This document shows positions 1-60,694 of a stretch of 64,000 bases of DNA, in pieces (the stretch's first letter is position 1; each line of letters starts with the position of its first letter). Location of the stretch: positions 1-64,000 of the forward strand of contig JAUQWO010000014.1 of NCBI GenBank assembly GCA_030835135.1, written 5' to 3'. The notes under the pieces are model-generated. The model ran no database searches and was not told where the DNA came from. It saw only the letters and a list, made by a program, of their open reading frames with translations. The DNA comes from Bacteroidota bacterium. Lineage in GTDB: Bacteria > Bacteroidota > Ignavibacteria > UBA10030 > UBA6906. The position numbers and the translations under genes are program-made.

Positions 1-18
1 AATACAACTGTGGACCCC

Positions 19-2990: not shown

Positions 2991-3003
2991 GGCCGCGCCG
3001 ACA

Positions 3004-3885
3004 ATGCCCTGGTTCCTCCTTGCCACGATCTCTGCGCTTCTGTCTGCCGCTGCCGCGGTCCTGCAGAAGAAAAGCCTTCTGCAGACCCGGGCGCTGCCGT
3101 TCGCGTTCGTGCTCTCCTTTGTCATCATGCTCCTCTCCGTGGTGTTCCTTGCCGGCGTGGACGCGCTGGACGTGCCACCGCTGGTTCTCGCGCTTCTCGT
3201 CGGGAAGAGTCTGGTCGGTGGCACTGCATTCCTCTGTGTGATGATGTCCCTGGAGGGCGGACAGATCAGCACCGTCCTCCCGCTCATGGGACTGACCCCC
3301 GCCATGACCGCGGTCCTGTCGTTCCTGCTCACCGGGGAGACGATGACATGGACCGAGTGGGTGGGTCTCGCCGTCATGATGACCGGCGTGTATCTGGTCG
3401 AGTGGAAGCCGGAAGGGCGGGGCACCTGGGCCGCACGGGTGCAGACGGTTCTGACCGAACGCCGGCTGATCATCCTGGCGCTTCTGCTCTTCGCTGTCTC
3501 CTCTGTCGCTGATAAACTGCTGGTGAGCACGCACAAGACCGATCCCCGTCTCGTGCTCGTCTATCAGCACGTGGTCTTCTGCCTGTTGTTCGGAGGGATG
3601 CTGCTTCTGCGGAAGGTCCCGGTGGGGGAGGTCGTCCGTCAGGCGAGACGCCAGCTCCCGCTGTTCCTCGTCATTGCCCTGGTGACGATCGGCTACCGGT
3701 ATGCGCAGCTCGAGGCGACGCGGCTTGCGCCGGTCGCCCTCGTTCTCGCGGTGAAGCGGACCTCGATCGTCTATGCATCGTTGCTGGGAGGGAAGATCTT
3801 CGCGGATGACCGGCTGGGTCTGCGCCTCGCCGGCGCCGCGCTCATCGTTGCGGCCGGATTCATCATCCTGCGGAACGTGGGCTGA
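3004..3885 (+). CDS. EamA/DMT-family inner-membrane transporter
   Basis: A 293-residue, very hydrophobic protein with about ten predicted membrane helices in two repeated halves (residues about 2-137 and 153-291), the drug/metabolite transporter EamA layout. The first half keeps the conserved pattern around LPLMGLTPAMTAVLSFLL and the second half repeats it around LAPVALVLAVKRTSIVYASL. The substrate cannot be read from sequence. It starts 13 bp after the TonB-dependent receptor on the same strand, so the pair may form an outer- and inner-membrane route for one compound. It converges with the next gene, with only 8 bp between stop codons and no clear terminator hairpin. Confidence 0.85.
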   Translation: MPWFLLATISALLSAAAAVLQKKSLLQTRALPFAFVLSFVIMLLSVVFLAGVDALDVPPLVLALLVGKSLVGGTAFLCVMMSLEGGQISTVLPLMGLTPAMTAVLSFLLTGETMTWTEWVGLAVMMTGVYLVEWKPEGRGTWAARVQTVLTERRLIILALLLFAVSSVADKLLVSTHKTDPRLVLVYQHVVFCLLFGGMLLLRKVPVGEVVRQARRQLPLFLVIALVTIGYRYAQLEATRLAPVALVLAVKRTSIVYASLLGGKIFADDRLGLRLAGAALIVAAGFIILRNVG

Positions 3886-3893
3886 CCCCTCGC

Positions 3894-4766
3894 TCAGGGC
3901 CTCTCGGCTGTTGCCCGCAGGATGAACTCGACGATCGGTGCCGGATCGATGAGACTGTGCGGATGATGCCCGACCCCCGGCTTGCGTATCACCGTGATGC
4001 GTCCACCCGCAGCGAGCACCCTTCGTTCAAAGGGGTCGGTATTCTCGCTGAGAGGCACCGTCATGTCAGCGTCGCCACAGACGTGAAGCATCGGGTATCC
4101 GCCTGCGGCGATCTCCGCCGCCCGATCGAGCGGATTGCCTCTCCAGGCGAGGGCTTCCTCATCCGAGTGCAGCCCGAATTCCTGCTTGAACAGCTCCCAC
4201 AGCGGATGTTTTCCCTTGCCCGTGTCCTTATACCCCGGCCAACTCTTGAAATCCAGTGACGGTGCATCGGCATACACGCAACTGACGCGGTCGGGGTAGG
4301 CGAGTGCATACAGGTACACGTACAGCCCGCCCCGGCTGAACCCCATGAGGGCTGCGCGCCGTGAAAGCCCCGCCGCCACGAGCCGCCGGTAGAACCGGTC
4401 CCAGATCCCGATCGCTTCTGCGTTACCGAACAGCTCGGCCACATCGCAATACACCAGATGATATCCCTGTGCGAGCAGTGCGAGCTCGGTCTGTGGTTCA
4501 TGTCCCCAGAAGCGCGCACGCCAGAGCCACGGATGGCCCGGCGCCGCATGTCCCGGCACGACGATCCGGGCGTCATGGCCTTCGAAGCTGAACGAACAGC
4601 AATCAAAGCCATGATAGTTCGTGTGTACGCCGGTGACACCGGCGCGCCGGAGGACATCGAAGGCCGTGGTATCCGGTGGCGCGGCGGCGACCGCCGTTGC
4701 GCACGCGAGCACCATCAGGAACACCCATGCGGATGCCCGGGGGGATGCGGCACGGTGGATGCTCAT
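3894..4766 (-). CDS. Secreted alpha/beta hydrolase
   Basis: A 290-residue alpha/beta-hydrolase-fold protein. A signal peptide covers about residues 1-29 (hydrophobic core VFLMVLACATAVAAA). The nucleophile elbow is GFSRGG with Ser144; the later CGDADMTVP carries a plausible catalytic Asp and GVGHHPH the catalytic His. The sequence resembles acetyl-xylan-esterase-like or dienelactone-hydrolase-like predicted esterases, but the substrate is unknown. The frame is open further upstream; the ATG at 4766 is chosen because it overlaps the stop of the prolyl oligopeptidase gene by four bases (ATGA) and begins a proper signal peptide. The two genes are therefore probably co-translated and act together outside the cytoplasm. 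Confidence 0.82.
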   Translation of the reverse strand: MSIHRAASPRASAWVFLMVLACATAVAAAPPDTTAFDVLRRAGVTGVHTNYHGFDCCSFSFEGHDARIVVPGHAAPGHPWLWRARFWGHEPQTELALLAQGYHLVYCDVAELFGNAEAIGIWDRFYRRLVAAGLSRRAALMGFSRGGLYVYLYALAYPDRVSCVYADAPSLDFKSWPGYKDTGKGKHPLWELFKQEFGLHSDEEALAWRGNPLDRAAEIAAGGYPMLHVCGDADMTVPLSENTDPFERRVLAAGGRITVIRKPGVGHHPHSLIDPAPIVEFILRATAERP

Positions 4767-6871
4767 TCGTTCACGCCCAACAGGTGGAGCATGAAGGCAT
4801 ACTTGAGTGCCGTGAGCTTCTGGCGCTCGAACCGTCCGGATTCTCCCGCATGCCCTGCCCCCATGTTCACTTTGAAGAGGATCGGATCGTCGCCCGTGTT
4901 GTGCTCGCGTACCCGCGCCACCCATTTGGCGGGTGAGAAGACGGGGACCTGCGTGTCGTTCAGGCCGCCGGTAGCGAGGATCGCCGGATAGCGTGCGGAC
5001 TTCACGTTGTCGTACGGCGACCAGGTGAGGAGGTACTCATAGTGTTCGCGGTTCGCGGGATTCCCCCATTCGTCGTACTCGAGCGTGGTAAGGGGGAGGG
5101 CGGGGTTCTCCATATCCGTGATCACGTCCATCCACGGGACATCCGCGATGATGCCACGGAAGAGGTCCGGCCGCATATTGATCACCGCACCCATCAGCAT
5201 GCCGCCCGCGCTGCCGCCGTTGGCGAACAGGCGGTCGACCGATGTGTAGCGCTCGTTCACGAGGTACTGTGCACAGGCGACGAAGTCCTCGAACGTGTGC
5301 TTCTTCGTCAGGACCTTCCCATCATCGTACCATTGCCGGCCCATTTCCTGTCCACCCCGGACGTGTGCGATCCCGAACCCGAACCCGCGGTCCAGCAAGC
5401 TCACCACCGACGATGTGAAGTAGGGATCAGAATTGGCGCCATACGAGCCGTAGGCGTACAGCAGGAACGGATCGCTGCCGTCATGCGCGAAGCGATCGGT
5501 GCGGTAGACGATGCTCATGGGAACACGCACGCCGTTCCCGGCGTCCACCCACACCCGCTGTGTGGTATACAGCGATGGGTCGAACCCCGGGACGCGGTCG
5601 CGCTTGAGCAGCGAGGCGGTACGTGTGGGGATGTCGTAGCGGTACTCGGACCGTGGCGTTGTCAGCGACGTGTAGGTGTAGCGGATGCTGTCCTGGTCGT
5701 ACCGGTCGGTCGCGAGCGAGAGCCCCGCAACATAGGCGGGTTCCGAGAACTGGACGTTCGCCTCGGTGCCCGTCGTCCGGTCGCGGATGACGATCGTGGT
5801 CAGTCCATTGACCCGGTATTGAGAAACGATGAAACGGGCAAGGACCTCGGTGCTTTCCAGCAGTGCCTCCGGCCGGTGGGGAAGGACATCCTTCCAATGG
5901 GCCATGCCGGGGGACATCACCGGGGCGTTCACCAGTTTGAAGTTCTTTGCATCCCGGTTGGTCATGATGAAGAAGGATCCTTCGGCATGCTCGGCGACCG
6001 CATACAGCATGTCGGGCTGACGCTTCTGGATCAGGACCGGCGGAACGTCGGGCCGGTCCGCCGCGATCGCCCGCCACTCGCTGGCGAGCGTACTCGTGGA
6101 CGCGATGAAGATGAATGCATGGTCCCGCGAGGTGCCGAGCCGGACACTGAACGTGCTATCCGCTTCCGCGTAGACCTCCGCGTCCGAGGCCGGATCGGTG
6201 CCCACCGTGTGGCGCATCACCCTGTAGGCACGGACGGTCGGGTCGTTCAGCACATAATAGAGGGAACGGCTGTCATTGGACCATGCATAATTCCCGCTGG
6301 TGTTGACGATGACATCCGGGAGATCCGTACCGGTGCTCAGGTCCCGGATGCGCAGGACACATCGCCTGTCCCCCGTGGTGTCGGTGCCATACGCCACACG
6401 GCTGTTCCCCGGATCCACGCTGTACCCGCGGATCATGAAGATCTGATGTCCGGACGCAAGCGCCGGCACATCCAGGAAGATCTCCTCGCTCGCCGTCTGG
6501 CTCCCTTTCTTCCTGCAGAAGAAGGGATACTGCTGTCCTTTCTCGAACCGTGTATAGTACCAATAGCTATTGAGCATGACGGGCAACGATGACTGATCCG
6601 GGTCGATGCGTCCCACCAGCTCGTCGTAGATCTTCTTCTGCAGATCGTTCGTCGGCTCGAGCATCGCCGCGGTGTATGCATTTTCCCTGGTCAGGTGGTC
6701 GATGAGTCCCGGATCGGAAGCATCGTTCATCCATGCGTAGTCATCGACCCGTGTATGGCCGAATTCGGTGTAGGTCTTCGGGGCCTTCCGTGCCTCGGGT
6801 GGGACCGGCTTGCTGCAGGAGATGAACAGGATGGCAAGCAGGGAAACGACAATGGTCAGCGTGCGGCGCAT
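4763..6871 (-). CDS. S9 family prolyl oligopeptidase (oligopeptidase B type), lipoprotein
   Basis: A 702-residue S9A serine peptidase that cleaves short peptides. The N-terminus is a lipoprotein signal with the invariant Cys after LFIS, so it should be envelope-anchored. A beta-propeller fills about residues 60-430 and the hydrolase domain follows. The catalytic triad is visible: Ser554 in GGSAGG, Asp639 in GLNDTQV and His674 in GAGHAGESG. The opening PKTYTEFGHTRVDDYAWM is the typical family start of the mature protein. The ATG at 6871 has AAAGG seven bases upstream; longer frames to 7048 lack a credible signal. It is translationally coupled to the esterase-like gene downstream. Confidence 0.92.
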   Translation of the reverse strand: MRRTLTIVVSLLAILFISCSKPVPPEARKAPKTYTEFGHTRVDDYAWMNDASDPGLIDHLTRENAYTAAMLEPTNDLQKKIYDELVGRIDPDQSSLPVMLNSYWYYTRFEKGQQYPFFCRKKGSQTASEEIFLDVPALASGHQIFMIRGYSVDPGNSRVAYGTDTTGDRRCVLRIRDLSTGTDLPDVIVNTSGNYAWSNDSRSLYYVLNDPTVRAYRVMRHTVGTDPASDAEVYAEADSTFSVRLGTSRDHAFIFIASTSTLASEWRAIAADRPDVPPVLIQKRQPDMLYAVAEHAEGSFFIMTNRDAKNFKLVNAPVMSPGMAHWKDVLPHRPEALLESTEVLARFIVSQYRVNGLTTIVIRDRTTGTEANVQFSEPAYVAGLSLATDRYDQDSIRYTYTSLTTPRSEYRYDIPTRTASLLKRDRVPGFDPSLYTTQRVWVDAGNGVRVPMSIVYRTDRFAHDGSDPFLLYAYGSYGANSDPYFTSSVVSLLDRGFGFGIAHVRGGQEMGRQWYDDGKVLTKKHTFEDFVACAQYLVNERYTSVDRLFANGGSAGGMLMGAVINMRPDLFRGIIADVPWMDVITDMENPALPLTTLEYDEWGNPANREHYEYLLTWSPYDNVKSARYPAILATGGLNDTQVPVFSPAKWVARVREHNTGDDPILFKVNMGAGHAGESGRFERQKLTALKYAFMLHLLGVNE

Positions 6872-48082: not shown

Positions 48083-48727
48083 CTACATACGGTGAACGAT
48101 ATGGTCCTGAAGCGCCCGGGCGACCGCCTGGGATTTCGAGTGGACATGCAATTTATCGTAGATGTTGCGGAGGTGGGCGCGTACGGTGAAGACGCTGATG
48201 AAGAGGGCATCGGCGATCTGCTGATAGTCATCCCCTTCGACAAGACGTTCCAGCACCGCGACCTCACGGTTGGTCAGTTGATGGTCCACCTTCTCCGGTG
48301 GCCGGAACTCCTTGAACATCGTCAGGACCCGGCGGGCGATGCTGGGGGACATCGGCGTGCCCCCGCCGAACGCGTTCTCAACCGCTTCCAGCAGGGTGGC
48401 GGGGAGGACCGGCTTCGTCACATAGCCGATCGCTCCGGCACAGATCGCGCGAAAGACGCTGTCATCATCCTGATGGACCGTGAGAACGATGACCTGGTAC
48501 CGCGGATGCTTCTCGCGGAGGAGGCGTGTGGCCTCGATCCCGGACATCCCCGGCAGGCTGATATCCATCAGCACCACATCGGGGTCGATCCTGTCCGATG
48601 CCACGAAGAACGCCTCGGCGTTGGCGAACTCGCCGGCGACCTCGAACCCCGGGGAGGTCCTCAGAATCAGCGATGTCCCCATCCGGAAATCAAGATTATC
48701 TTCGACGATCGCAACACGGATCGGCAT
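48083..48727 (-). CDS. NarL/LuxR-type response regulator
   Basis: A 214-residue response regulator: receiver domain with phosphorylatable Asp55 in VLMDISLPGMSGIE, Lys in VTKPV, and a C-terminal LuxR-type helix-turn-helix (LTNREVAVLERLVEGDDYQQIADAL, abridged: LTNREVAVLE and YQQIADALFIS). The ATG at 48727 has GAGG five bases upstream; one at 48748 is possible. It follows the sensor kinase gene after about 60 bp on the same strand, a standard kinase-regulator pair. It probably controls genes in response to the propeller sensor; targets are unknown. Confidence 0.93.
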   Translation of the reverse strand: MPIRVAIVEDNLDFRMGTSLILRTSPGFEVAGEFANAEAFFVASDRIDPDVVLMDISLPGMSGIEATRLLREKHPRYQVIVLTVHQDDDSVFRAICAGAIGYVTKPVLPATLLEAVENAFGGGTPMSPSIARRVLTMFKEFRPPEKVDHQLTNREVAVLERLVEGDDYQQIADALFISVFTVRAHLRNIYDKLHVHSKSQAVARALQDHIVHRM

Positions 48728-48789
48728 AGAGGCCTCATGGACGGGCATAGGTACGCACCTTTCGCCTGATCTTCAATAGGTTGTTCTGA

Positions 48790-51700
48790 CTATTTGTCGA
48801 GATGCAGGAAGAACACGATGCGCGTGCCGGTGGGTGGATGGGGTTCAACGGACATTGTGCCGCCGAGCGATCTCGCCCTCATCCTCATGGTCGCCGACCC
48901 GCGACCGGGGTCCGCAGCCTCTCCGTTCCATCCCCGTCCGTTGTCGGTCACCGTCGCAAGGACCCCATCCCCGTTCTTCCTGACAGCGACCGCAAGTTCC
49001 GTTCCCCCCGAATGCTTGATGGCATTGTTCATCGCCTCCTTCAACATCATCCAGAGGTTCTTCCGCTGCTCCGGGCTCAGATCAACAGTGGTGAGTTCGT
49101 CATCGTCCTCCACCGCAACGGTGAGCCGCATGCCGCGTGCCCTGCAGGCCGTGACCATCATGTCCCGCAGCCTGTTCATCAGGCTTGCAACGGTCTCCAC
49201 GTTCGGATCGATCGACCAGATGATCTCACGCACGACCTCGGCCGACCCCGTTGCGAGCATCGTGATCCTGTCCAGCAGGGCGCCGGATTCCACTGTGCCA
49301 TTCCGGATCAGCGCACCGAACATGGCGATGCTGCTCAGGTTCGATGCGAGCTCATCATGCAGGTCCGAGGCAAGACGCATGCGCAGCCGCGCCAGCTCAC
49401 GCAGTTTCCGTACGCGGGCCCGGTAGAGGAGGAGCAATACGCACGCGATGACGCCCACGGAGACAAGGATGAACCACCATGTCCGCCAGAAGGGCGGCAG
49501 GACCGTGAAGGAAACGCTTGCGGGATGAGTGCTCGGGGTCCCATCGGGCCCGATCGCCCTCACGTGGAACACATACCCGCCCGGTGCGAGGCGCGCGAAA
49601 CTGACCGTCCGCTGACGGAGTGAGATGTCTCGCCATATCGTCTCGCCGCTGATCGCGTACTGGTATCTGACATTCGCGGTCGCGTACAGCGCGGTGCTCG
49701 AGAAATCGATGGCGAGGTCGCCCTGGTTGTCCTCCAGCGTCAACGGCCCGACGGATCCCACCCCGGGATCTTGCAGTGCGATGGGTTCTCCGCCGATGCG
49801 GATACCCGTGATGAGGATCGAAGGTGGACCTGTGGAAACGACGGCGTCAGGCCGTTTCGAAGACACCCCCTGGAATGTCCCGAACCACATCACCCCCGCC
49901 GGGTCTCTGTGCGCTGCTGTCACGAAATCGCCCGCAAGGCCATCATTCATCGTGAAGTGGCGAACCGTCCCGGTCCGGACTTCCAGACGATCCACTCCGC
50001 GGACGGTTCCCGCCCAGAGAGTGCCGGCGTCTTCAGACGCGAGACAGCGCACATTGTTGCTGGTGAGCCCGTTCGCGCGGCTGTACTGGATGAAGCGAAG
50101 GGAGTCGCGTGACAGGTCGTCGATGCGGAAGATGCCGCTCGTCGCCGTTGCGATCCACAAGCGGTTGGCTCCGTCCACGAGGACGTCGGTGACCATGCCT
50201 TCGGGTATCCCGTCGGCGGGCCCGTATGATCGGAAGGTTCGTCCATTCCAGCGCACGAGGCCGCCGGAGTACATGCCGATCCAGAGCCTTCCGCTGCTGT
50301 CCTCGGTGAAGCAGCTCGGTGCGCGGCGGGGGGGAAGTCCGGGTGATCCTTCGAGGTCCTGGAGGGTCGAAAGATCCGGGCTGAGCGTTGCCAGTCCATC
50401 ATCCTGCGGATCGCCCGTCCGGGTGCCGATCCAGTACGTCCCGCGAGAGTCCTCGTACATGCGGAAGATCTGTGAACCCGGCAATCCATCGCGCTCGGTA
50501 TAGATGCGTTCAGGAGGTCCTGTGCTGCTGCGCTTTCCATACCGGCACAACCCCTGCGATGTGAGTGCCCACCACCGTCCCTGCCTGTCGTGGTAGGCGA
50601 GCTGTGATGCCCACATGGATGCGGCTCCCCGCGGAACGGTCAGCTGGGCAGACCGCACGATCCTGCCTTTGATCGTGCTGACCCACCAATCTCGTGTGAC
50701 GACATAGGGCGTGCCGTCGGCGTCGGAGCCGATGGTCGCGACGGGAAGACTCGCCGCAGGTATCTCAGGAACAACGGTAATGAAGCCGTCGGGAGGCAGA
50801 CACATCGCGCCTGCCGGAGATCCGATCCACAGCCCGCCCTGATCATCGGCGGTCAACGAGTGGATGAGATCGCTGCACAGGCCGTTGTTCATCGTGATCC
50901 CGGAGAACGTGCGTCCGTCGAACCGGGTGAGCCCGCCGGCGGTTCCGATCCATGTGTCCGGCGGCATGGCGCAGATCGCGGTCACGTTATTATTCGTGAG
51001 TCCATCCGCCGTCGTGAAACGCATCGCCGTCCCCCGTCTGTCCGCCGGCCCCTCCAGGGTCCTGTGTCCACGTGCATACATGACCGCATCCGTCCCGGGC
51101 CGACAGCGAAGGGCACCCGTGCTGTCGGGCACGAGGACGATCAGTCCCGCGAAGCGGTGGCCGATCCATATCCTGTCCGTGCCATCGATCGTGACCGTGT
51201 GGAGCACATCGCCATCAGCCTTGTCGTACAGGGTGTAATGCCGCACCGCCCCGTCCGGCTCTGCGACATAGAGCCCGCGATTGGTGGCAACCCACAGTCG
51301 ACCGTGCCGGTCCTCGCTGAGTCCCGTAACCCTTACCACCGGTTGGGCAGGGCCACGCGAGGTATCGAGCTGGATGACGGAAGGACTCCCATCGAGATCG
51401 CGGACGACATTGCCGGTGCCCCCACCCCAGAGGATGCCGGTAGGGCCGAGGGCGAGCGCGTGGACGTTAGGTTGGGGATCGGCATCGCGGATGAGAAATG
51501 GTGCGAACCGCGGAGCATGAACCGAAGTTCCTGATGCCTGGTTCGAGGCGATCAGGCCGCCGTTGGTGATCACGAACAGACGTCCGGAGGGGGCCTCGAG
51601 ACTGAGCAGCGCCGTGCCGGATGTCAATCCGTCTTCAGCTCCGAACGTCACGAACTCGTACCCGTTGTACCGGCTCAGACCGTCCCGCGTGGAGAACCAG

Positions 51701-51861
51701 AGGAATCCTGCCCGGTCCTGCATGACATGCGCGACGAAGGCGCTCCCCAGGCCGTCCGCGGCGGTATAGGTACGAAAGGGAAGCCTCTCCGCAGAGGTAA
51801 TGCGGGAGCAGAGTATCAGAAGAGTGACCACCATGACGCGGAGGAGATCTGTAGATCGCAT
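48790..51861 (-). CDS. Sensor histidine kinase with periplasmic beta-propellers (Reg_prop/Y_Y_Y)
   Basis: A 1023-residue sensor. A signal peptide (1-25) is followed by about 670 residues of Reg_prop repeats (for example GFLWFSTRDGLSRYNG, GLWIGSPAG, RLWIGMYSGGLVRWNG) forming two propellers, a Y_Y_Y domain (about 685-770), one membrane helix (about 775-795) and a HisKA_3/HATPase transmitter with His835 in SDLHDELASNLSS and the late DNGRGWNG. In Bacteroidota similar sensors of glycans are usually hybrids with an AraC output; here the transmitter is NarL-type and the regulator is a separate gene. The strong promoter at 51919-51947 precedes it. Possible starts: 51861 or 51900. Confidence 0.92.
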   Translation of the reverse strand: MRSTDLLRVMVVTLLILCSRITSAERLPFRTYTAADGLGSAFVAHVMQDRAGFLWFSTRDGLSRYNGYEFVTFGAEDGLTSGTALLSLEAPSGRLFVITNGGLIASNQASGTSVHAPRFAPFLIRDADPQPNVHALALGPTGILWGGGTGNVVRDLDGSPSVIQLDTSRGPAQPVVRVTGLSEDRHGRLWVATNRGLYVAEPDGAVRHYTLYDKADGDVLHTVTIDGTDRIWIGHRFAGLIVLVPDSTGALRCRPGTDAVMYARGHRTLEGPADRRGTAMRFTTADGLTNNNVTAICAMPPDTWIGTAGGLTRFDGRTFSGITMNNGLCSDLIHSLTADDQGGLWIGSPAGAMCLPPDGFITVVPEIPAASLPVATIGSDADGTPYVVTRDWWVSTIKGRIVRSAQLTVPRGAASMWASQLAYHDRQGRWWALTSQGLCRYGKRSSTGPPERIYTERDGLPGSQIFRMYEDSRGTYWIGTRTGDPQDDGLATLSPDLSTLQDLEGSPGLPPRRAPSCFTEDSSGRLWIGMYSGGLVRWNGRTFRSYGPADGIPEGMVTDVLVDGANRLWIATATSGIFRIDDLSRDSLRFIQYSRANGLTSNNVRCLASEDAGTLWAGTVRGVDRLEVRTGTVRHFTMNDGLAGDFVTAAHRDPAGVMWFGTFQGVSSKRPDAVVSTGPPSILITGIRIGGEPIALQDPGVGSVGPLTLEDNQGDLAIDFSSTALYATANVRYQYAISGETIWRDISLRQRTVSFARLAPGGYVFHVRAIGPDGTPSTHPASVSFTVLPPFWRTWWFILVSVGVIACVLLLLYRARVRKLRELARLRMRLASDLHDELASNLSSIAMFGALIRNGTVESGALLDRITMLATGSAEVVREIIWSIDPNVETVASLMNRLRDMMVTACRARGMRLTVAVEDDDELTTVDLSPEQRKNLWMMLKEAMNNAIKHSGGTELAVAVRKNGDGVLATVTDNGRGWNGEAADPGRGSATMRMRARSLGGTMSVEPHPPTGTRIVFFLHLDK

Positions 51862-51918
51862 GGATCGTGGTGTCCGGAGAGCGGTTGGTGGAGGCCCCAC
51901 CCCTCATCTCATGGGTGG

Positions 51919-51947
51919 AGTATACGATTTGGGGCGGGGATTGTCAA
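51919..51947 (-). promoter_or_regulatory. Strong predicted promoter of the sensor kinase operon
   Basis: Minus strand: TTGACA, 17 bases, TATACT, a near-consensus sigma70 site. Its -35 box overlaps the -35 box of the divergent promoter at 51941-51969. Confidence 0.7.
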
Positions 51948-51969
51948 TCCATTGATTTTGTCCGATTAT
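51941..51969 (+). promoter_or_regulatory. Predicted promoter of the RsbW-STAS-sigma operon
   Basis: TTGTCA, 17 bases, GATTAT. The leader to the ATG at 51988 would be only about 12 bases. The -35 shares the palindrome ATTGTCAAT with the divergent promoter. Confidence 0.45.
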
Positions 51970-51987: not shown

Positions 51988-52392
51988 ATGCAGCGGGACT
52001 TCACAAAGGCGGTTTCTTCCCTCAGCGAGATCTTTGCCTTTATAGATGAGCACGTCGCGGGTACCGGGATCTCGCCGGCCGGGGTCTATGCCATGTATTT
52101 CGTCGTCGAAGAGCTCTTCACGAATATGGTGAAGTACGCCGCGGCATCGGCGGAGGATGTGACCATCGCCGTGGGGATCGACGGGTCACGGCTGACCATC
52201 CAGCTCACCGACCACAACGTGGAACCGTTCGATCCGGCGAACGCCCCGAAAGTCGACCCTTCCACGCCACTGCAGGAGCGCAGGATCGGTGGACTCGGGA
52301 TCCAGCTCGTGCAACAAATGGTGGACGACCTGCAGTACAGCTATGCCGACCGCTGCAGCACCATCACGATCACCAAGACCCTGGAGCCCTAG
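51988..52392 (+). CDS. RsbW-like anti-sigma serine kinase/ATP-binding protein
   Basis: A 134-residue GHKL-fold protein of the RsbW/SpoIIAB kind. The N-box VVEELFTNMVKYA (about 36-48) and the G-box GGLGIQLVQQMVDD (about 100-113) are clear. Such proteins bind a sigma factor or another partner and phosphorylate a STAS antagonist. The ATG at 51988 lacks a strong ribosome site and would have a very short leader. A STAS gene begins one base after the stop and an ECF sigma gene after that, so a partner switch controlling the sigma factor is the natural reading, although RsbW proteins usually hold SigB-type rather than ECF sigma factors. Confidence 0.85.
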   Translation: MQRDFTKAVSSLSEIFAFIDEHVAGTGISPAGVYAMYFVVEELFTNMVKYAAASAEDVTIAVGIDGSRLTIQLTDHNVEPFDPANAPKVDPSTPLQERRIGGLGIQLVQQMVDDLQYSYADRCSTITITKTLEP

Positions 52393-52393
52393 C

Positions 52394-52687
52394 ATGTTCG
52401 TGATCACACCCGCTGACAATGGGGACGTTCTCCTGTCCGGACGCTTCGATGCGGCCCAGGTAGACCGTGCCGATGCGGTCCTGGGGCGCCTCCAGACCAC
52501 CACCCGGATCGATTTTTCGGGCCTGGAATACATCTCCAGCGCCGGACTCGGGTGCCTCCTGAAGGCCCAGAAACGGCTGGCCCAATCCGGCCATGGCCTC
52601 ATTCTTATACGGATGAACAAGCTCGTCCGCGACATCTTCCGTATGGCGCGCCTCGAGGTCGTATTTCGGATCGATGATGACGCCTGA
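52394..52687 (+). CDS. STAS-domain anti-sigma factor antagonist
   Basis: A 97-residue single-domain STAS protein (RsbV/SpoIIAA type). The phosphorylation loop reads IDFSGLEYISSAGLGCLL, with Ser48/Ser49 as candidate sites for the kinase encoded upstream. GGAG stands seven bases before the ATG at 52394. The gene lies one base after the RsbW-like gene and overlaps the sigma gene by 14 bases, so all three are tightly coupled. When unphosphorylated it should capture the kinase and free its other partner. Confidence 0.87.
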   Translation: MFVITPADNGDVLLSGRFDAAQVDRADAVLGRLQTTTRIDFSGLEYISSAGLGCLLKAQKRLAQSGHGLILIRMNKLVRDIFRMARLEVVFRIDDDA

Positions 52688-53258
52688 AACCAACTTTTCA
52701 CCGGACCCCGTGTATATTCAGAAAGGAGACGACGACGGCGAACTCATCGGCCGGATCCTCTCCGGCGATGTTGCGGCATTCGGAACCCTGGTCGACCGCT
52801 ATCAGAAAGTGGTCTTCAATACGGCGCTCAGGTTCCTGCAGGACAGTGATGAGGCGGAGGATGTCGCGCAGAACGTGTTCGTCAAAGTGTATGAACATCT
52901 CGGCACCTACGATCACCGCCTCAAGTTCTTCAGCTGGCTGTACCGGATCACGGTGAACGAGAGTCTGAACCACCTGCGCCAGCGAAAGCCGACCGAACGG
53001 ATGACCGATCAGGTCTCTGTTTCCGATGCGCAGGACGAAGCGGAGAGAGCGGACACCGCCCGGCGGATCCAGGAAGCGATCCGCATGCTCTCGCCCGACC
53101 ACCAGGCATTGATCGTCCTCCGGCACTACGAGGACCTCGGCTATGACGAGATCGCCGCGGTGCTCGCGATCTCGGAGAAGAAAGTGAAATCGCGCCTCTT
53201 CACGGCGCGACAGGTCCTGAAGGACCTGCTCATCAAATGCGGAGTACAGGCACCATGA
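52674..53258 (+). CDS. ECF-type RNA polymerase sigma factor
   Basis: A 194-residue sigma-70 family ECF factor. Region 2 (about 25-95: GDVAAFGTLVDRYQKVVFN, DAEDVAQNVFVKVYEHL-like DEAEDVAQNVF, then FFSWLYRITVNESLNHLR) and region 4 (about 130-185: LSPDHQALIVLRHYEDLGYDE, AISEKKVKSRLFTAR) are both intact. It could start at 52674 or 52677. It overlaps the STAS gene upstream by 14 bp and the anti-sigma-like gene downstream by 4 bp. It is thus flanked by a cytoplasmic partner-switch pair and a membrane protein, two control systems at once. Its target promoters are not recognised. Confidence 0.95.
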   Translation: MMTPETNFSPDPVYIQKGDDDGELIGRILSGDVAAFGTLVDRYQKVVFNTALRFLQDSDEAEDVAQNVFVKVYEHLGTYDHRLKFFSWLYRITVNESLNHLRQRKPTERMTDQVSVSDAQDEAERADTARRIQEAIRMLSPDHQALIVLRHYEDLGYDEIAAVLAISEKKVKSRLFTARQVLKDLLIKCGVQAP

Positions 53259-54520
53259 TCGATGAACGGACAATGGACCTGATCAACAGGGACCTCGACG
53301 GCGCGGCATCTCCCGGGGAGCATGACGCGCTCGTTGCTCTCCGCGCCTCCCGCAGTGATATCGAAGCGGCCTATCAGGGTATGCTGGCCCTCCATCAGGC
53401 GCTCGCGGCGCCCGCACTCCAGGAACCACCGCCCGCACTCAAGCCGGCGATCATGCGGGCGATCACCGCACACCCCCGGGCAACGGTGACACCCACGATC
53501 ATGGACCGCATGCTTGATGCACTGATTCCCCCCACGTTGAAACACACGCTGATCACGTACTTCACAGGAGACGGTATGGAAGCCAATGGGATGCAGACGA
53601 AGAGCAAGCGTGGCACTCTGCTGATCACCGGGGGCGTCTTCGCCGCCATGATCCTGGTCATCATGGTCGCGGTGAAGGATCTGCCGGTTGCCGAGGAGGA
53701 ATCGTCCGGTACGATCGGCGCCGTGAAGAAGTACAACGCTTCCCAGATCGCCGACCAGGACGTCGTGCTTCAGGGCGAATCGGAGAACCCGATCATGGCC
53801 GATGCAGCCACGATCACCAGCGTGGCGACGGTGAGCGAACATGCGCGTGAGCTTTCCCGCCTTGCCGAAGGACTGACGGCGGACGGTCGGGCGGTTGAAG
53901 GTGCCCAGGCACTTGCCGACCAGGCACGTGAACTTGCCGCCCAGGCGGAAGCGGTCCGGTCCCTCGGCCGCGCAGCAGAAGCCGCGAAGTATGCCGAAGC
54001 CGCGAAGGAACTCGCACGCAACGCCGAAGGCCTCCGCGCACTCGGCCGCACGGCAGAGGCGATGAAACTCCAGGATGCTGCGCGGGCCCTCGGGAAGTCC
54101 GCCGAAGGCGCCAGCGCCGCGGTGCTCAACAATGAGGCACGTCTCCTCGCCGAGGGTGCGCGCGAAGTTGCACGCGCTGCTGAAGGTATGAAGAGTCTCG
54201 GGAAGACCGCGGAAGCTGCCCGGCTCGCGGACGCCGCGAAGGAATTCGCGCGCTATGCCGAGTCCGTGAAGTCGTTCGGCCGCACGGCGGAGTCCATGAA
54301 ACTCGCCGAGCGCATAGCGGACCTCGGTGCCATTGCCGTCTTGTTGAAAGCCGAAGGCAGGACCGAACTCGCCCGATCGCTCGAAGCGGGTGTCCGTGAG
54401 ATCGGTCGTGTTGCCGAGGCCGCGAAAGTGATCGGGGCATATGAGGATGGTGCCCGCGCGACGGAAGCCGCAAAGGCCTCGGACGCCGCGAAAGCACTCG
54501 AAGGCGCGCGCACGAACTGA
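53255..54520 (+). CDS. Membrane anti-sigma-like protein with eight 26-residue repeats
   Basis: A 421-residue protein overlapping the sigma gene by 4 bp (ATGA). The N-terminal ~110 residues (LINRDLDGAASPGEHDALVALR, abridged: NRDLDGAASPGE) resemble the cytoplasmic domain of ECF anti-sigma factors, without the zinc HxxxCxxC motif. One membrane helix lies at about 121-142. The extracytoplasmic part contains eight tandem repeats of 26 residues (the first of 27), best seen in AKELARNAEGLRALGRTAEA, alanine-rich and clearly helical. It could sense envelope state or extend through the periplasm. A strong hairpin follows. Likely the sigma factor's membrane partner; this is inferred from position and domain. 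Confidence 0.75.
   Translation: MIDERTMDLINRDLDGAASPGEHDALVALRASRSDIEAAYQGMLALHQALAAPALQEPPPALKPAIMRAITAHPRATVTPTIMDRMLDALIPPTLKHTLITYFTGDGMEANGMQTKSKRGTLLITGGVFAAMILVIMVAVKDLPVAEEESSGTIGAVKKYNASQIADQDVVLQGESENPIMADAATITSVATVSEHARELSRLAEGLTADGRAVEGAQALADQARELAAQAEAVRSLGRAAEAAKYAEAAKELARNAEGLRALGRTAEAMKLQDAARALGKSAEGASAAVLNNEARLLAEGAREVARAAEGMKSLGKTAEAARLADAAKEFARYAESVKSFGRTAESMKLAERIADLGAIAVLLKAEGRTELARSLEAGVREIGRVAEAAKVIGAYEDGARATEAAKASDAAKALEGARTN
53843..54469 (+). repeat. Eight in-frame 78-bp tandem repeats inside the anti-sigma-like gene
   Basis: Units begin at 53843 (81 bp), 53924, 54002, 54080, 54158, 54236, 54314 and 54392 (78 bp each). The protein consensus is roughly AxELxRxAEGxRxLGRTAEA followed by a six-residue AxLADA-like end. 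Copies have diverged at DNA level, so this is old duplication rather than a recent slippage array. Confidence 0.8.
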
Positions 54521-54550
54521 CCTGACGTTGTTGTCTCTCTCCCGTCGTAC

Positions 54551-54578
54551 GCAGGGACGCCCCTCCGGGCGTCCCTGC
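54551..54578 (+). terminator. Terminator after the sigma factor operon
   Basis: GCAGGGACGCCC, loop CTCC, GGGCGTCCCTGC: a 12-bp perfect stem 30 bp past the stop. The T-run after it is weak (TCGTATGAT). Confidence 0.65.
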
Positions 54579-54609
54579 TCGTATGATATCACCACCCCGG
54601 ATGGTTCCC

Positions 54610-57546
54610 ATGTCGATCAGGCGCCCCTGGCTCGTTCTCCTCTGCCTCGTCGTGAGCATCCCTGCGTCCGCACAGTTCTTCACCGTCCGCACACATGACC
54701 TGCGTCTCATCTACTACGATCCCTCGCACGCCTATGTGATCCCGCATCTCGTCCGCACCTTCGAGAATTCCCTCGGCTCTCACCGCCGGTTCTTCGACTA
54801 CCGGCCCGATGGTCCGGTGCACGTCCTGCTTGAGGATTTCGATGATCACGGGTATGCCGGCGCCACGGGTGTCCCGTTCAACTACCTCCGCCTGGGGATC
54901 GAGCCATACCGGTACGATTTCGATACTGCCCCAACGAACGAACGCTTCAATTGGGTGATGAACCACGAACTGCTCCATATCGTGGCCTCCGACAGGGCAT
55001 CGGCAGGGGATCGGTTCTTCCGCGGACTGTTCGGCGGGAAGGTGGCGCCGGTGGCCGATCAGCCTCTCTCCATGCTCTATAGTTATTGGACGAATCCCCG
55101 GAAATACTCGCCCCGCTGGTATCACGAGGGCCTCGCTGTCTTCATGGAGACGTGGATGGCCGGCGGCATCGGGCGTGCGCTGGGAGGGTGGGATGAGATG
55201 GTGTTCCGGACGATGATCAGGGACAGCAGCTTCATCTACGACATCGTCGGGCTCGAATCGGAAGGGACCACGGTCGATTTTCAGGTCGGCGCGAATTCCT
55301 ACCTGTACGGGACCCGCTTTGTGAGCTACTGCGGGTTGACCTTCGGACCGGAGAAGGTGCTCGCATGGTGCTCGCGAACGGACACGAGTGCGGCCGATTT
55401 CAGCAGTGCGTTCTCCGCGGTGTTCGGCAACTCACTCGAACAGGAATGGAGCCGCTGGATCTCCTGGGAGCGCCGGTTTCAACGGACGAATCTGGATTCG
55501 ATACGGCGCTTCCCGGTGACGCATGGGCAACGGATCTCAACGCGGGCGTTGGGTTCCCTTTCGCGCGCCTTCTATGACAGCACGCGGCACGCGATACTGG
55601 CGGCGATCAATTACCCGGGGCAGCTGGCGCACATCGCCGCCATCGATGTTCGTACGGGCCTGCTCAGCAGGATCTGTGACGTGGAGACGCCCGCGCTGTA
55701 TTCGGTCTGTGCGCTGGCATACGATGCAGGGGGGGCACAGCTCTTCTTTACCACCAACAACAGCCGCGACTGGCGTCATCTGTGCCGGGTCGATCTTCGG
55801 ACCCGGGACGTGCAGCGCCTGATCCCGGAAGCCCGCATCGGTGATCTTGCATTCTCTTCCAGCGACAGGGTGCTCTGGGGTGTGCGGCACCATGGAGGGA
55901 TCTCGACGATCGTCCGCATCCCTCCACCGTACACGGCATGGTATACGGTCCTCCCGCTGGAGTACGGGAAGGACATCTTCGACCTCGACGTATCTCCTGA
56001 CGGCACGACGCTCATCGGTTCGCTGATCGAGATCAACGGACATCAGTCGCTCGTGAGTCTGTCCATCCCGGCGTTGATGGCAGGGGAGGGGGACGCGCGG
56101 ACGCTGCTTGCTTTCGAGAACAACACCTCTCCACAGAATTTCACCTTCTCCGGGGACGGGCGATCCCTCTACGGCTCGTCGTACTATACCGGTGTGTCGA
56201 ACCTGATCAGGTACGATCTCGAGGACCGGACCCATGCGGTGCTGACGAATGCCGAGACCGGTCTCTTCCGGCCGGTGCCGTTCTCCGCGGACTCTCTGAT
56301 CGCCTTCGAGTACACCGGCGCCGGCTTCATCCCCGTGATCGTGCCGGTGGACGCGAAAGAGGACCTGAATGCCGTCACGTATCTCGGGCAGCGGATCGTA
56401 GAGGAGCATCCTGTGGTCACGAGGTGGACCGTGGGTTCACCACGTTCAATCGAACCGGATTCCGTGATCACGTACCGGGGCCCGTATGACGGCCTCAGCG
56501 AGTTGCGGCTGCAGTCGATCTATCCGATCGTTGCCGCGTACAAGGACTACACCGCGGCGGGGGTGAAGTTGACGGTGTCCGATCCGCTGCAGCTGGAGAG
56601 CATCGAGGCCGCAGTATCGTACACTCCGTCGCGTTCGTTGCCCATGGGAGAACGCGTGCATGCATCGGTGGATATCCGGCATTGGCCGTGGAAGGTGAGG
56701 CTCTCGTACAACCGGGCGGATTTCTATGATCTGTTCGGTCCGACGAAAACGAGCAGGAAGGGGTACGGGGTCGGCATCGAGTATGCAGGAGGACTGATCA
56801 ATGACCGTCCACGGATGCTGGACTATACCATTGCCGGTGCGGCATTCGGGGGACTCGATCATGTGCCGGAGTATCAGAATGTGTCGACGTCGTACGATCG
56901 CGTGTTCTCGCTGCGTGGAGGACTCACGTACCACAACCTGCGCCGTTCGCTGGGTGCTGTGGAGTACGAGCAGGGCGTGAGTGCATCCGCCAACGTGACG
57001 TCCAACTATGTGCGCTCGTCGCTGTATCCCCGGTTCTCGCTCGACGCGGCGTACGGATTCCTGTTGCCGCTGGATCACTCCTCGGTCTGGCTGCGTGGGG
57101 CGGCCGGAAAGGCGGTCGGGGTACGTGGCGAACCCTTCGCGAGCTTCTACCTTGGTGGATTCGGGAACAACTGGGTGGACCATCAGGACGAGCACCGGTA
57201 CAGGGAGATGGAGAGTTTCCCGGGGATGGAGCTGAACGCCGTCGGTGCCTCAAATTTCCTCAAGGGGATGGTCGAATGGACCCTTCCGCCGGTGCGGTTC
57301 CGGCGGGTCGGCGTGCCGATGATCTTTTGCACGTGGGCCCGCTTCGCGGTCTTTTCTTCGGCATTGGTAACGGATCCAGACCATGCTCCAACGCGGACGG
57401 TGGTCTATAACCTGGGAGGGCAGGTGGATCTGAGGCTGGTCATGTTCTGGCGGCTGGAATCGATGCTGTCCATCGGGTACGCGCTCGCCGCGGTACCGGA
57501 CCAGCGTTCCAGCCGTGAATTCATGGTCTCGCTGAAGATCCTGTGA
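54610..57546 (+). CDS. Secreted zincin (peptidase MA-like) with propeller and outer-membrane barrel
   Basis: A 978-residue envelope protein. After a signal peptide (1-22) comes a zinc-peptidase domain with HELLH at residues 119-123 and Glu173 in YHEGLAVF (gluzincin pattern). A WD40-like propeller fills about 300-600, and from about 640 alternating beta-strands with surface-antigen-like features (NNWVDHQDEHRYREM) run to the C-terminus, suggesting an outer-membrane beta-barrel. This three-part layout would anchor a protease at the surface or just inside the outer membrane. The ATG at 54610 starts the signal peptide. It follows the sigma/anti-sigma genes after a hairpin and may be a target of that system; that is inference. 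Confidence 0.75.
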   Translation: MSIRRPWLVLLCLVVSIPASAQFFTVRTHDLRLIYYDPSHAYVIPHLVRTFENSLGSHRRFFDYRPDGPVHVLLEDFDDHGYAGATGVPFNYLRLGIEPYRYDFDTAPTNERFNWVMNHELLHIVASDRASAGDRFFRGLFGGKVAPVADQPLSMLYSYWTNPRKYSPRWYHEGLAVFMETWMAGGIGRALGGWDEMVFRTMIRDSSFIYDIVGLESEGTTVDFQVGANSYLYGTRFVSYCGLTFGPEKVLAWCSRTDTSAADFSSAFSAVFGNSLEQEWSRWISWERRFQRTNLDSIRRFPVTHGQRISTRALGSLSRAFYDSTRHAILAAINYPGQLAHIAAIDVRTGLLSRICDVETPALYSVCALAYDAGGAQLFFTTNNSRDWRHLCRVDLRTRDVQRLIPEARIGDLAFSSSDRVLWGVRHHGGISTIVRIPPPYTAWYTVLPLEYGKDIFDLDVSPDGTTLIGSLIEINGHQSLVSLSIPALMAGEGDARTLLAFENNTSPQNFTFSGDGRSLYGSSYYTGVSNLIRYDLEDRTHAVLTNAETGLFRPVPFSADSLIAFEYTGAGFIPVIVPVDAKEDLNAVTYLGQRIVEEHPVVTRWTVGSPRSIEPDSVITYRGPYDGLSELRLQSIYPIVAAYKDYTAAGVKLTVSDPLQLESIEAAVSYTPSRSLPMGERVHASVDIRHWPWKVRLSYNRADFYDLFGPTKTSRKGYGVGIEYAGGLINDRPRMLDYTIAGAAFGGLDHVPEYQNVSTSYDRVFSLRGGLTYHNLRRSLGAVEYEQGVSASANVTSNYVRSSLYPRFSLDAAYGFLLPLDHSSVWLRGAAGKAVGVRGEPFASFYLGGFGNNWVDHQDEHRYREMESFPGMELNAVGASNFLKGMVEWTLPPVRFRRVGVPMIFCTWARFAVFSSALVTDPDHAPTRTVVYNLGGQVDLRLVMFWRLESMLSIGYALAAVPDQRSSREFMVSLKIL

Positions 57547-57621: not shown

Positions 57622-57650
57622 TTGACAAACTGCGATTTGTTTGCCATAAT
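57622..57650 (+). promoter_or_regulatory. Predicted promoter of the xylan operon
   Basis: TTGACA, 17 bases, CATAAT; RNA start near 57657, leader about 125 bases. The last base of the -10 box is the first base of the operator that follows. The rest of the gap 57547-57783 holds no gene. Confidence 0.7.
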
Positions 57651-57663: not shown

Positions 57664-57783
57664 CCTAACTAGAACCGGTTTGGATTTGCCTGAAAGCCTC
57701 TCCTTGCCGCCCGCATGTCTGGGATGTTCCCGGAGGTGTGAAGCTCCGGTGAGAGCGTTGACAGGAACGTGGAGGATCAATGC

Positions 57784-59349
57784 ATGCTCTCGAAGGATCG
57801 TGGCGATCGCCTGGCGCTGTTCACACTCCTCCTGCTCATTCCCGCATCCGTCGCGCTGTCTCCGCGTGCTCATGCCCAGATCGCGGCTGGCACAGGGCGA
57901 TTCATCGGAAATGCGGTGGGCGTTGACGTCCGGTCGGACTTCAAGGTCTACTGGAACCAGCTGACGCCGGGGAATGCAGGCAAATGGGGGAGCGTTGAGT
58001 ATGCAAAGGACCAGTATACCTGGGGCCCGCTCGACGCATTCTACCAGTACTCGCTCGGGAACGGATTCACCTACAAGCATCACACGCTCGTCTGGGGGAA
58101 TCAACAGCCTTCATGGATCACATCGGTCGACTCCGTTGTCCAGCGCGCACAGGTCGAAGAGTGGATCAAGCTCGTCGGGCAGCGGTACCCGCTGATGTCG
58201 ATGGTGGATGTCGTGAATGAACCGTTCCATGCAGTGCCATCGTACGCTCCCGCGATCGGCGGCAGTGGAACGTCTGGTTGGGACTGGGTCATTCAGGCGT
58301 TCACCTGGGCCCGACAATACTGCAACCCGGGGGCACAGCTGATTCTGAATGAATACAACGTCCTCCACGACAATGGTGTCACAAAGAACTACCTCCGCTT
58401 GATCGATACCTTGCGTACGCGCGGCCTGATCGATGCCATCGGGATCCAGGGACATTACTTCGAGTTTCGCGCACCCGCGGCCACAGGGACATACACATAT
58501 AGTGTCGCAACGATCAAAGCGAACCTGGATCGCCTCGTCGCGACCGGATTGCCCGTGTACATCTCGGAGTTCGACATCAATGAACCGGTCGACAGCATCC
58601 AGCTCGCCAACTACCGGACGTACTTCCCGATCTTCTGGGACAACCCGGGCGTGAAGGGCATCACGTTGTGGGGGTATGTCCAGGGTGACATCTGGCAGGA
58701 GAATGGTTACCTCATCAGGACCGACGGCACTGAACGTCCGGCGATGAAATGGCTGCGCAAGTACGTCGCTTCCCCCACGGCGCCCTCTCTTGTTGCCCCC
58801 GTCGGCGGAACCGGGCTCCCTGTGAATCCGCTCCTGATCTGGAACGCGTCCCGCAACGCCAGTGCCTACCGGCTCCAGCTCTCCATTGGCACCGCGTTCT
58901 CAACGACCGCCATGGACACCACCGTGGCGGATACGGTCGTCCGCGCCCGCCACCTGATTGCAGATACGCGGTATTACTGGCGCGTCACGGCGATGAATGA
59001 CAGTGGCGCGGGTGGCTGGTCGGCCACCGGTATGTTCCAGACGGGCACGGAGGTTGCAGGGGTGACGGACGAGCCGACCGTTGTCCGTGCGACCACACTG
59101 CTGCAGAATTTCCCCAACCCGTTCAATCCAGCCACACGCATCACCGTCGTGCTCGCAGAGCGCCAGTGGACACGGGTCCGGGTGTATGATGGACTCGGAC
59201 GGGAGATCGCGACGTTGATGGACGGCGTGCGCGATCCGGGGACATACACCGTCACGTTCGATGGTGCTCACCTGGCGGGAGGAGTGTACTACTGCCGGCT
59301 GCAGGCGGGCACGACGTCGCAAACGCGTGCCATGCTGCTGGTCCAGTGA
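57784..59349 (+). CDS. GH10 endo-1,4-beta-xylanase with type IX sorting domain
   Basis: A 521-residue secreted xylanase. Signal peptide residues 1-31. The GH10 barrel (about 35-330) shows YKHHTLVWGNQQPSW, the acid/base Glu146 in VVNEPFH, NEYN and the nucleophile Glu262 in YISEFDIN, ending with ITLWGYVQGD. A fibronectin-III-like domain (about 345-425) links to a type IX tail (NFPNPFNPAT, final AMLLVQ). GGAGG stands eight bases before the ATG at 57784. First gene of an operon with GH8 and GH115 genes: it cuts the xylan backbone at the cell surface, and the other two finish oligomers. Confidence 0.95.
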   Translation: MLSKDRGDRLALFTLLLLIPASVALSPRAHAQIAAGTGRFIGNAVGVDVRSDFKVYWNQLTPGNAGKWGSVEYAKDQYTWGPLDAFYQYSLGNGFTYKHHTLVWGNQQPSWITSVDSVVQRAQVEEWIKLVGQRYPLMSMVDVVNEPFHAVPSYAPAIGGSGTSGWDWVIQAFTWARQYCNPGAQLILNEYNVLHDNGVTKNYLRLIDTLRTRGLIDAIGIQGHYFEFRAPAATGTYTYSVATIKANLDRLVATGLPVYISEFDINEPVDSIQLANYRTYFPIFWDNPGVKGITLWGYVQGDIWQENGYLIRTDGTERPAMKWLRKYVASPTAPSLVAPVGGTGLPVNPLLIWNASRNASAYRLQLSIGTAFSTTAMDTTVADTVVRARHLIADTRYYWRVTAMNDSGAGGWSATGMFQTGTEVAGVTDEPTVVRATTLLQNFPNPFNPATRITVVLAERQWTRVRVYDGLGREIATLMDGVRDPGTYTVTFDGAHLAGGVYYCRLQAGTTSQTRAMLLVQ

Positions 59350-59374
59350 CATGCATGCGCGGGAAAGGATGACC

Positions 59375-60694
59375 ATGTTCAACGTCGCCCCGGAGCACAG
59401 ACCGGAGAACCGCACGACAGCAGGGCGGCCCCGGTTCCTCCTTCTGCTGATGGCCACAATGCTGATCTCATCGTGTGCGGGGAATCAGATGACGCAGGAT
59501 CCCGCGGTACACGACGAGCGCGGCGCGTACTTCACCGGGGTCTACCCTGATCTGTTCGTGCAATTGCCCGGCATCACCGCCGACAGCGTCGGCCGCAAGA
59601 TCGACGGGGCATTCCGCCTCCTGTTCTATGGTAACGACTCGACCGGGCGCATCTACTATCCTGTCGGCGACACGATGGCGTACATCGAGGATACGGGCAA
59701 CAAGGATGTGCGCACCGAGGGTATGTCCTATGGCATGATGATCGCGGTGCAGCTGGACAAGAAAGAAGAGTTTGACCGGCTGTGGCGATGGGCGAAAGCG
59801 TACATGGATTTTCCCTCGGGCCCGCACCGGGGGTACTTTGCCTGGCATTGCCGGACGGATGGCACGAAACTGGATTCCACCGCTGCCTCCGACGGCGAAG
59901 AGTGGTTCGTCACGGCACTCTTCTTTGCTTCGGCGCGCTGGGGTGATGGCGAAGGCGACCTCCGCTACAGCGAGCAGGCGCAGCGCATCCTCACAACGAT
60001 GCTGCACAAGGAGGATGAGCCGGATCACGGCAGCGTCACCAACATGTTCAGTCGCCGCGATACCCTTGTGGCCTTCGTGCCGTCCGCAGACGCCGATCAC
60101 TTTACCGATCCGTCCTACCAGGTCCCTCACTACTACGAACTCTGGGGGCGCTGGGCCACGCACGACAACGCCTTCTGGTGTGCCGCGGCGCGGTCGTCCC
60201 GGCTCTTGTTGCGGAGATCCGTCCACCCGCGGACGGGCCTTGCGCCCGACTACTCCGGCTTCGATGGCATGCCGATCGAGTGGGGGCCGCCGGGTCACGC
60301 GGACTTTCGATTCGATGCGTGGCGGGTGGCGATGAACACGGCGATGGACTGGCTCTGGTTCCGGCGCGATGCGTGGCAGGTGGCGCAATCGAACCGTCTT
60401 CTGCGCTTCTTCGCGGAACAGGGTATCAGCACCTACGGGAATCAGTTCACGCTGGAGGGGAGGCCGTTGGACACGCCGCACAGCGGCGGACTTGTTGCGA
60501 TGAACGCCGTGGCAGCTCTGGCCGCAACGGACCCGGTGCGGTGGACGTTCGTCCGGGCGCTCTGGGATCTTCCTGTCCCGACAGGAAGGTATCGCTACTA
60601 TGACGGCGTGCTTTATCTGATCGGACTGCTGCAGTGCAGCGGCAATTTCCGTATCTACAGCCCCGCGGGATCACCCACCACCGGCTGTCCCTGA
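59375..60694 (+). CDS. GH8 hydrolase, probable reducing-end xylose-releasing exo-oligoxylanase
   Basis: A 439-residue GH8 enzyme with a lipoprotein signal (LLMATMLISSC, Cys26-28 region), so it is envelope-anchored. The general acid is Glu115 in RTEGMSYGMMIAV and the base is likely Asp245 in FTDPSYQVPHYYELWG, a stretch typical of the oligoxylanase (Rex) group rather than cellulases. Position between GH10 and GH115 genes supports xylo-oligosaccharide trimming. The ATG at 59375 has AAAGG six bases upstream; ATGs at 59351 and 59369 are alternatives. It follows the xylanase by about 25 bp. Confidence 0.88.
   Translation: MFNVAPEHRPENRTTAGRPRFLLLLMATMLISSCAGNQMTQDPAVHDERGAYFTGVYPDLFVQLPGITADSVGRKIDGAFRLLFYGNDSTGRIYYPVGDTMAYIEDTGNKDVRTEGMSYGMMIAVQLDKKEEFDRLWRWAKAYMDFPSGPHRGYFAWHCRTDGTKLDSTAASDGEEWFVTALFFASARWGDGEGDLRYSEQAQRILTTMLHKEDEPDHGSVTNMFSRRDTLVAFVPSADADHFTDPSYQVPHYYELWGRWATHDNAFWCAAARSSRLLLRRSVHPRTGLAPDYSGFDGMPIEWGPPGHADFRFDAWRVAMNTAMDWLWFRRDAWQVAQSNRLLRFFAEQGISTYGNQFTLEGRPLDTPHSGGLVAMNAVAALAATDPVRWTFVRALWDLPVPTGRYRYYDGVLYLIGLLQCSGNFRIYSPAGSPTTGCP

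Follow-up and report, generated by a model that had tools for sequence, protein, structure and literature searches.

Within a 64,000-nucleotide stretch of contig JAUQWO010000014.1 (hereafter the window), we identified a conserved operon that probably serves envelope signalling by feeding two inputs into a single ECF sigma factor, a reading to which we give a probability of roughly 0.6. Its anatomy appears to be that of a SigW-RsiW-PrsW proteolysis module combined with an RsbUVW partner switch, and both inputs likely converge on the same sigma factor. The initial annotation had described four overlapping or abutting genes here, encoding a kinase, a STAS protein, an ECF sigma factor and a membrane protein, and Pfam matches and gene coordinates bear out all four. 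Together with a fifth gene and two promoter-like sites, they are as follows:

51941-51969, plus strand: sigma-70-like promoter TTGTCA-17-GATTAT, upstream of the kinase gene (consensus scan only)
Overlapping the 51941-51969 promoter, minus strand: divergent promoter-like site TTGACA-17-TATACT (consensus scan only)
51988-52392, plus strand: kinase gene, RsbW/SpoIIAB-like serine kinase (HATPase_c_2) of 134 aa (PF13581, 3.5e-18)
52394-52687, plus strand: STAS gene, RsbV/SpoIIAA-like STAS protein of 97 aa with predicted phospho-acceptor S49 (PF13466, 2.2e-12)
52674-53258, plus strand: sigma gene, SigW/RpoE-like ECF sigma factor of 194 aa with sigma2 and sigma4 only (PF04542, PF08281)
53255-54520, plus strand: fourth gene, membrane/repeat protein with an N-terminal RsiW-like anti-sigma domain
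54583-57546, plus strand: fifth gene, protein with a signal peptide-like start, a HELLH peptidase-like domain, a TolB-like propeller and a predicted C-terminal outer-membrane barrel

The kinase and STAS genes are separated by 1 bp, the STAS and sigma genes overlap by 14 bp, and the sigma and fourth genes overlap by 4 bp (ATGA), a spacing which suggests that sigma and anti-sigma would be co-transcribed. Because a promoter precedes the kinase gene and the next strong promoter-like site lies at 57622, before a GH10 gene (consensus matches only), the transcription unit likely comprises all five genes, at 51988-57546. No ECF-type promoter motif was evident upstream of the kinase gene in 60 loci read by eye, for which the window extract began at a longer ORF rather than at ATG 51988. 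There was no confident Pfam match to either the fourth or the fifth protein. In divergent orientation (48083-51900, minus strand), the window also encodes a sensor kinase (Reg_prop, Y_Y_Y, HisKA_3) together with a LuxR-type response regulator, and the sensor kinase gene and the operon have a common upstream region. Two enzymes are encoded directly 3' of the operon (57769-60694, plus strand), in the place where relatives have PrsW: a GH10, which has a type IX-like secretion tail, and a GH8.

Among 99 related genomes, the best sigma matches were found on 28 contigs and the best kinase matches on 29; as 27 of these are in common, the pairing of kinase and sigma is not due to chance. The usual order in relatives is kinase, STAS, sigma, anti-sigma-like membrane protein, repeat protein, fifth protein and PrsW-family protease. 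Of the 28 relatives carrying the operon kinase, 27 have a strong ortholog of the fifth protein, and the locus of the one exception, G056, ends at a contig edge; three further genomes have such an ortholog but not this kinase. We then scanned 85,462 species genomes for the fifth protein, which gave 439 relatives, and the best 80 of them were fetched. The titles of these loci include Ignavibacteria, Balneolales, Rhodothermaceae, KSB1, Latescibacterota, Eisenbacteria, Krumholzibacteriota, Calditrichota, Zixibacteria, Marinimicrobia, Delongbacteria, Gemmatimonadota, Acidobacteria and Aminicenantes, and in this best-scoring part of the 439 the gene set is present across about a dozen phyla, mostly uncultured. 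Complete flanks were available for 35 loci, which are the best-scoring ones with enough flank rather than a random sample and are nearly all metagenome-assembled. The fifth protein, which was the query, is found in 35/35 of them, PrsW in 34/35, a repeat protein with the juxtamembrane box in 34/35, the ECF sigma factor in 32/35, the anti-sigma domain in 31/35, STAS in 30/35, the kinase in 28/35 and a SpoIIE-type phosphatase in 16/35. The four-gene order is conserved across phyla, which excludes an arrangement found only here, and the initial annotation was right to place both kinds of control in a single operon.

In several phyla the gene order is shuffled, yet the set is kept together (REARRANGEMENT). 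Locus L165 has the order PrsW, kinase, STAS, phosphatase, sigma, anti-sigma, repeat protein and fifth gene; in L181 and L194 the sigma and anti-sigma genes are relocated downstream, and in L198 the kinase and STAS genes are downstream on the opposite strand. L178 and L192 resemble these shuffled loci, with weaker kinase or sigma matches. The units that move are kinase-STAS, sigma-anti-sigma and repeat-barrel-PrsW, and all of them still form one neighbourhood. Next to the sigma gene in the Gemmatimonadota, a single divergent ORF of L186 (7165-7941, minus strand) matches both kinase and STAS, and in L208 (1151-1929, minus strand) the two matches fall in overlapping divergent ORFs. Because the shuffled orders keep the set together, the kinase-STAS pair is probably tied functionally to the rest, beyond plain inheritance. 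Most of the fetched loci do belong to related phyla within the FCB group, as would be expected if these were merely neighbouring genes, functionally unlinked and held together by vertical descent. We regard this as highly improbable, as the set is also found in Acidobacteriota and Gemmatimonadota with rearranged orders and orientations, and the fifth protein is missing from only one relative with the operon kinase, at a contig end.

The kinase and STAS protein have the hallmarks of an RsbUVW-type partner switch. The N-box residues E42 and N46 and the glycines G101 and G104 of the GGLG box are present in 100% of 60 kinase orthologs (HATPase_c_2), and a serine at the position of SpoIIAA-S58 (S49 in the window), predicted to be phosphorylatable, is found in 100% of 63 STAS orthologs. 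A single-sequence PDB search with the kinase gave no match, but the family profile matched RsbW best (6m36, 4.9e-11), and the closest solved homologs are RsbW and SpoIIAB anti-sigmas. An RsbU-type (SpoIIE-type) phosphatase is often encoded at the locus in relatives (16/35 complete loci), while the window genome has 12 SpoIIE matches, 0 of which are linked to the operon. Elsewhere in the same genome there is a phosphatase-STAS-kinase-phosphatase cassette (G000:C49, about 125700-130350) and a phosphatase-kinase-STAS-phosphatase cassette with weak kinase and STAS matches (G000:C27, about 1-5500); no ECF of the operon type was found beside either. The conserved residues, the phosphatase that many relatives have linked to the locus, and the placement of the kinase and STAS genes directly 5' of sigma are all shared with the SigB/SigF RsbUVW systems (SpoIIAB/AA/E). 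Together with the relationship of the kinase to RsbW and SpoIIAB, this placement might suggest a simple SigB-like switch, in which the kinase would serve as principal anti-sigma for the ECF factor, with the membrane protein being a regulon effector and not an anti-sigma. We find this improbable: the sigma factor is an ECF without a sigma-3 domain, there is in addition a class I anti-sigma distinct from the kinase, with an N-terminus that resembles RsiW in both profile and fold, and the gene of this anti-sigma overlaps that of sigma (the median gap between sigma and anti-sigma genes is -3 across 53 loci).

In the sigma factor, Pfam matched Sigma70_r2 and r4_2 with no region 3 between them. It scores 119.6 bits against the NCBIfam SigW model, which is below the cut-off of the model, and its PDB matches are AlgU, SigW and RpoE. 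SpoIIAB-type kinase anti-sigmas dock largely on sigma-3, and the linked sigma, an ECF, is not a target of the SigB/SigF type. As the only sigma-3-bearing sigmas of the window genome are RpoD and a FliA/WhiG-type factor, the genome has no SigB-type target elsewhere. That kinase anti-sigmas are best known with sigma-3 sigmas weighs against the two-input reading, as do the unlinked PrsW gene of the window genome, in which we found no cognate phosphatase, and the finding that RbaW of R. capsulatus did not interact with four tested sigmas, two of which are putative ECFs (PMC3999984). RsbW-like proteins have also served as a non-interacting control for ECFs in the survey of Casas-Pastor et al. (PMC7406223). 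By mirror-tree and partial correlation analysis, every partner correlates through operon inheritance and kinase-sigma coupling is not separable. The initial annotation had proposed either a two-input switch or an RsbW acting on something other than the sigma factor; because the components recur in shuffled orders and there is no SigB-type sigma in the genome, our data favor a partner switch acting on this system, whether or not the kinase touches sigma.

The partner switch is not indispensable to the system, because some loci do not have the kinase, or have neither kinase nor STAS. In L191, L196 and the relative L071, STAS lies beside sigma without an adjacent kinase, a hint in the gene content that STAS may be the output protein, and in L203, L207, L210 and L211 both are absent from an otherwise complete locus. 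The genomes of L191 and L196, and those of the loci that have neither, encode other kinases matching the profile. Such loci would fit a partner switch that does not act on this sigma, with the STAS protein or kinase regulating another target, as has been proposed for BtrUVW of Bordetella and RbaVW of Rhodobacter, and the operon being shared since the outputs are needed simultaneously. There are precedents for kinase-STAS pairs without an identified cognate sigma (PMC7498569, PMC3999984, PMC8256260). We nevertheless consider another target somewhat unlikely, as kinase and STAS stay beside the sigma module in many phyla despite the shuffled order, the genome has no SigB-type sigma, and co-regulation alone would be expected to lose linkage more often.

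The suggestion that the fourth protein is anti-sigma-like held up, being supported by both a profile match and a structural match to RsiW. Its parts are as follows:

53255-53566, plus strand: class I anti-sigma domain at the N-terminus, a 3-helix bundle and a 4th helix
53609-53677, plus strand: single transmembrane helix (residues 119-141 in the model), with KSKRG before it and EEE after
53708-53770, plus strand: juxtamembrane box GTIGAVKKYNASQIADQDVVL on the predicted periplasmic face (regular expression)
53804-54517, plus strand: helical repeat region, predicted periplasmic (helices 184-420 in the model, low confidence; homolog comparison)

A profile built from 45 fourth-protein N-termini matched RsiW (5wuq, 3.8e-9) and RskA (0.0047) in the PDB, while a single-sequence search with the domain gave no match. 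BAG1 matches of the same profile were taken as chance helical matches. The AlphaFold model has a three-helix bundle, with a pLDDT of about 95 at residues 1-50, followed by a fourth helix, and Foldseek aligned the protein to RsiW of the SigW-RsiW complex with a probability of 0.99 and a TM(target) of 0.79; E-values were weak because the query is mostly repeat. The zinc motif HxxxCxxC was found in 0/77 family members. The positive-inside rule predicts an N-in orientation for the transmembrane helix. Many relatives encode the anti-sigma domain and the repeat arm in two genes, while in the window and others they are one fused gene. Whether separate or fused, the repeat part has a membrane helix and, after it, a GT(I)G..KKYR..Q(I)..DV box; by regular expression, GTxG is present in 67/79 homologs and the longer juxtamembrane pattern in 65/79. 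The helix and box are conserved while the arm changes completely between lineages (L083, L145, L174, L187), with a repeat unit of roughly 9 residues, 12 residues or a longer TPR-like form. The split repeat-protein homolog L082 matches MgtE_N. As only one weak 18-bp array was found when the window repeat gene was searched for DNA-level tandem repeats, its repeats are apparently old or degenerate.

An ECF sigma factor with an adjacent class I membrane anti-sigma is the arrangement of the SigW-RsiW-PrsW module of Bacillus subtilis, in which PrsW is the site-1 protease of RsiW (PMC4598750). The sigma factor scores well against SigW models, the anti-sigma domain matches RsiW by profile and model, and most loci co-encode a PrsW-family protease (PF13367) whose catalytic residues E102, E103, K106, E140, H167 and H204 are present in 78/78 members, including the unlinked copy of the window genome, and which would cleave the anti-sigma. 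The window locus itself does not have PrsW. An unlinked ortholog is located at G000:C38, about 103202-104302 (L112 6203-7303, minus strand), and scores 502 bits against the operon-PrsW profile; another PrsW copy, on contig C46, is not among the above-threshold matches of this profile. The window genome also encodes an M50 site-2-type protease. Operon PrsW proteins (e.g., L099 1090-2190, minus strand) have a conserved C-terminal extension of about 120 residues (WLG.GFD.D..LL.MI...) after the PrsW domain. The system differs from the B. subtilis module in that its anti-sigma does not have the HxxxCxxC zinc motif of RsiW and has a long repeat arm or a separate co-encoded repeat protein. In addition, its hosts are diderms, a barrel-peptidase protein is encoded, and the kinase-STAS-phosphatase switch is joined to it.

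This barrel-peptidase protein is the product of the fifth gene, in which HExxH is found in 87/87 orthologs longer than 900 residues. Two sites mark its peptidase-like domain:

54964-54978, plus strand: HELLH motif
55126-55128, plus strand: second Glu, E182, invariant in 12 orthologs

The structural model is of modest confidence overall, and low in the peptidase region. Its propeller matches TolB, and about sixteen C-terminal strands (642-986) are consistent with an outer-membrane barrel. Against a viral fold library, there were only generic propeller matches. We infer that this protein is a sensor rather than an output.

Taken at the level of sequence, the parts, their conservation and their linkage are supported; the proteolysis step, the contact between arm and barrel, and the target of the partner switch are what we propose. 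From the envelope side, the RsiW-like domain of the fourth protein would hold sigma at the inner membrane, while the helical periplasmic arm, either fused or a separate co-encoded protein, would relay the state of the outer-membrane peptidase-propeller-barrel protein. On a signal, the juxtamembrane region would be exposed to PrsW (unlinked in the window genome), after which the site-2 protease would free sigma. From the cytoplasmic side, the kinase would phosphorylate STAS at S49 and an RsbU-type phosphatase would reverse this, so that the amount of releasable sigma may depend on whether kinase or STAS is free or bound. Docking of the kinase on sigma and action via the anti-sigma domain are about equally likely routes for this second input. 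A more specific and rather unlikely version is a widespread AND-gate or dual lock, where an ECF would be held directly by an RsbW-type kinase and at the same time tethered by an RsiW-like anti-sigma that PrsW cleaves, with a lineage-specific arm spanning the periplasm to an outer-membrane sensor.

The nearest precedent for the two-input operon is the Bordetella BtrS/BtrA/BtrUVW system, which likewise combines, in one locus, an ECF with a non-kinase anti-sigma and a set of kinase, STAS protein and phosphatase. BtrA has been described as a secreted anti-sigma, and BtrUVW are said to control type III secretion, through a mechanism described as unknown (PMC7498569). In contrast, the anti-sigma here has a predicted transmembrane helix rather than being a secreted, non-membrane protein, and the listed btr genes include neither PrsW nor a barrel protein. 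A partner switch also controls an ECF in the EcfG-NepR-PhyR system of Alphaproteobacteria, but PhyR is a sigma-mimic response regulator, which the operon does not encode, its antagonist-type protein being of the STAS type. NepR, moreover, does not reside in the membrane. In openly licensed papers, outside the ECF group classification, we found no description of RsbW together with PrsW and RsbV, or of such a combination of an RsbW-like protein with an ECF; what came up was a general review, the control use by Casas-Pastor et al. and the R. capsulatus study. The parts are thus familiar, and it is their combination that we did not find in the literature. If the two-input reading is true, partner switching and regulated intramembrane proteolysis would be joined on one ECF sigma factor in about a dozen mostly uncultured phyla. 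This raises the question of whether an RsbW-type kinase can control an ECF without sigma-3, and of how these diderms may sense the state of their outer membrane through a predicted peptidase-propeller-barrel protein and a fast-changing arm that is fused to the anti-sigma in some lineages.
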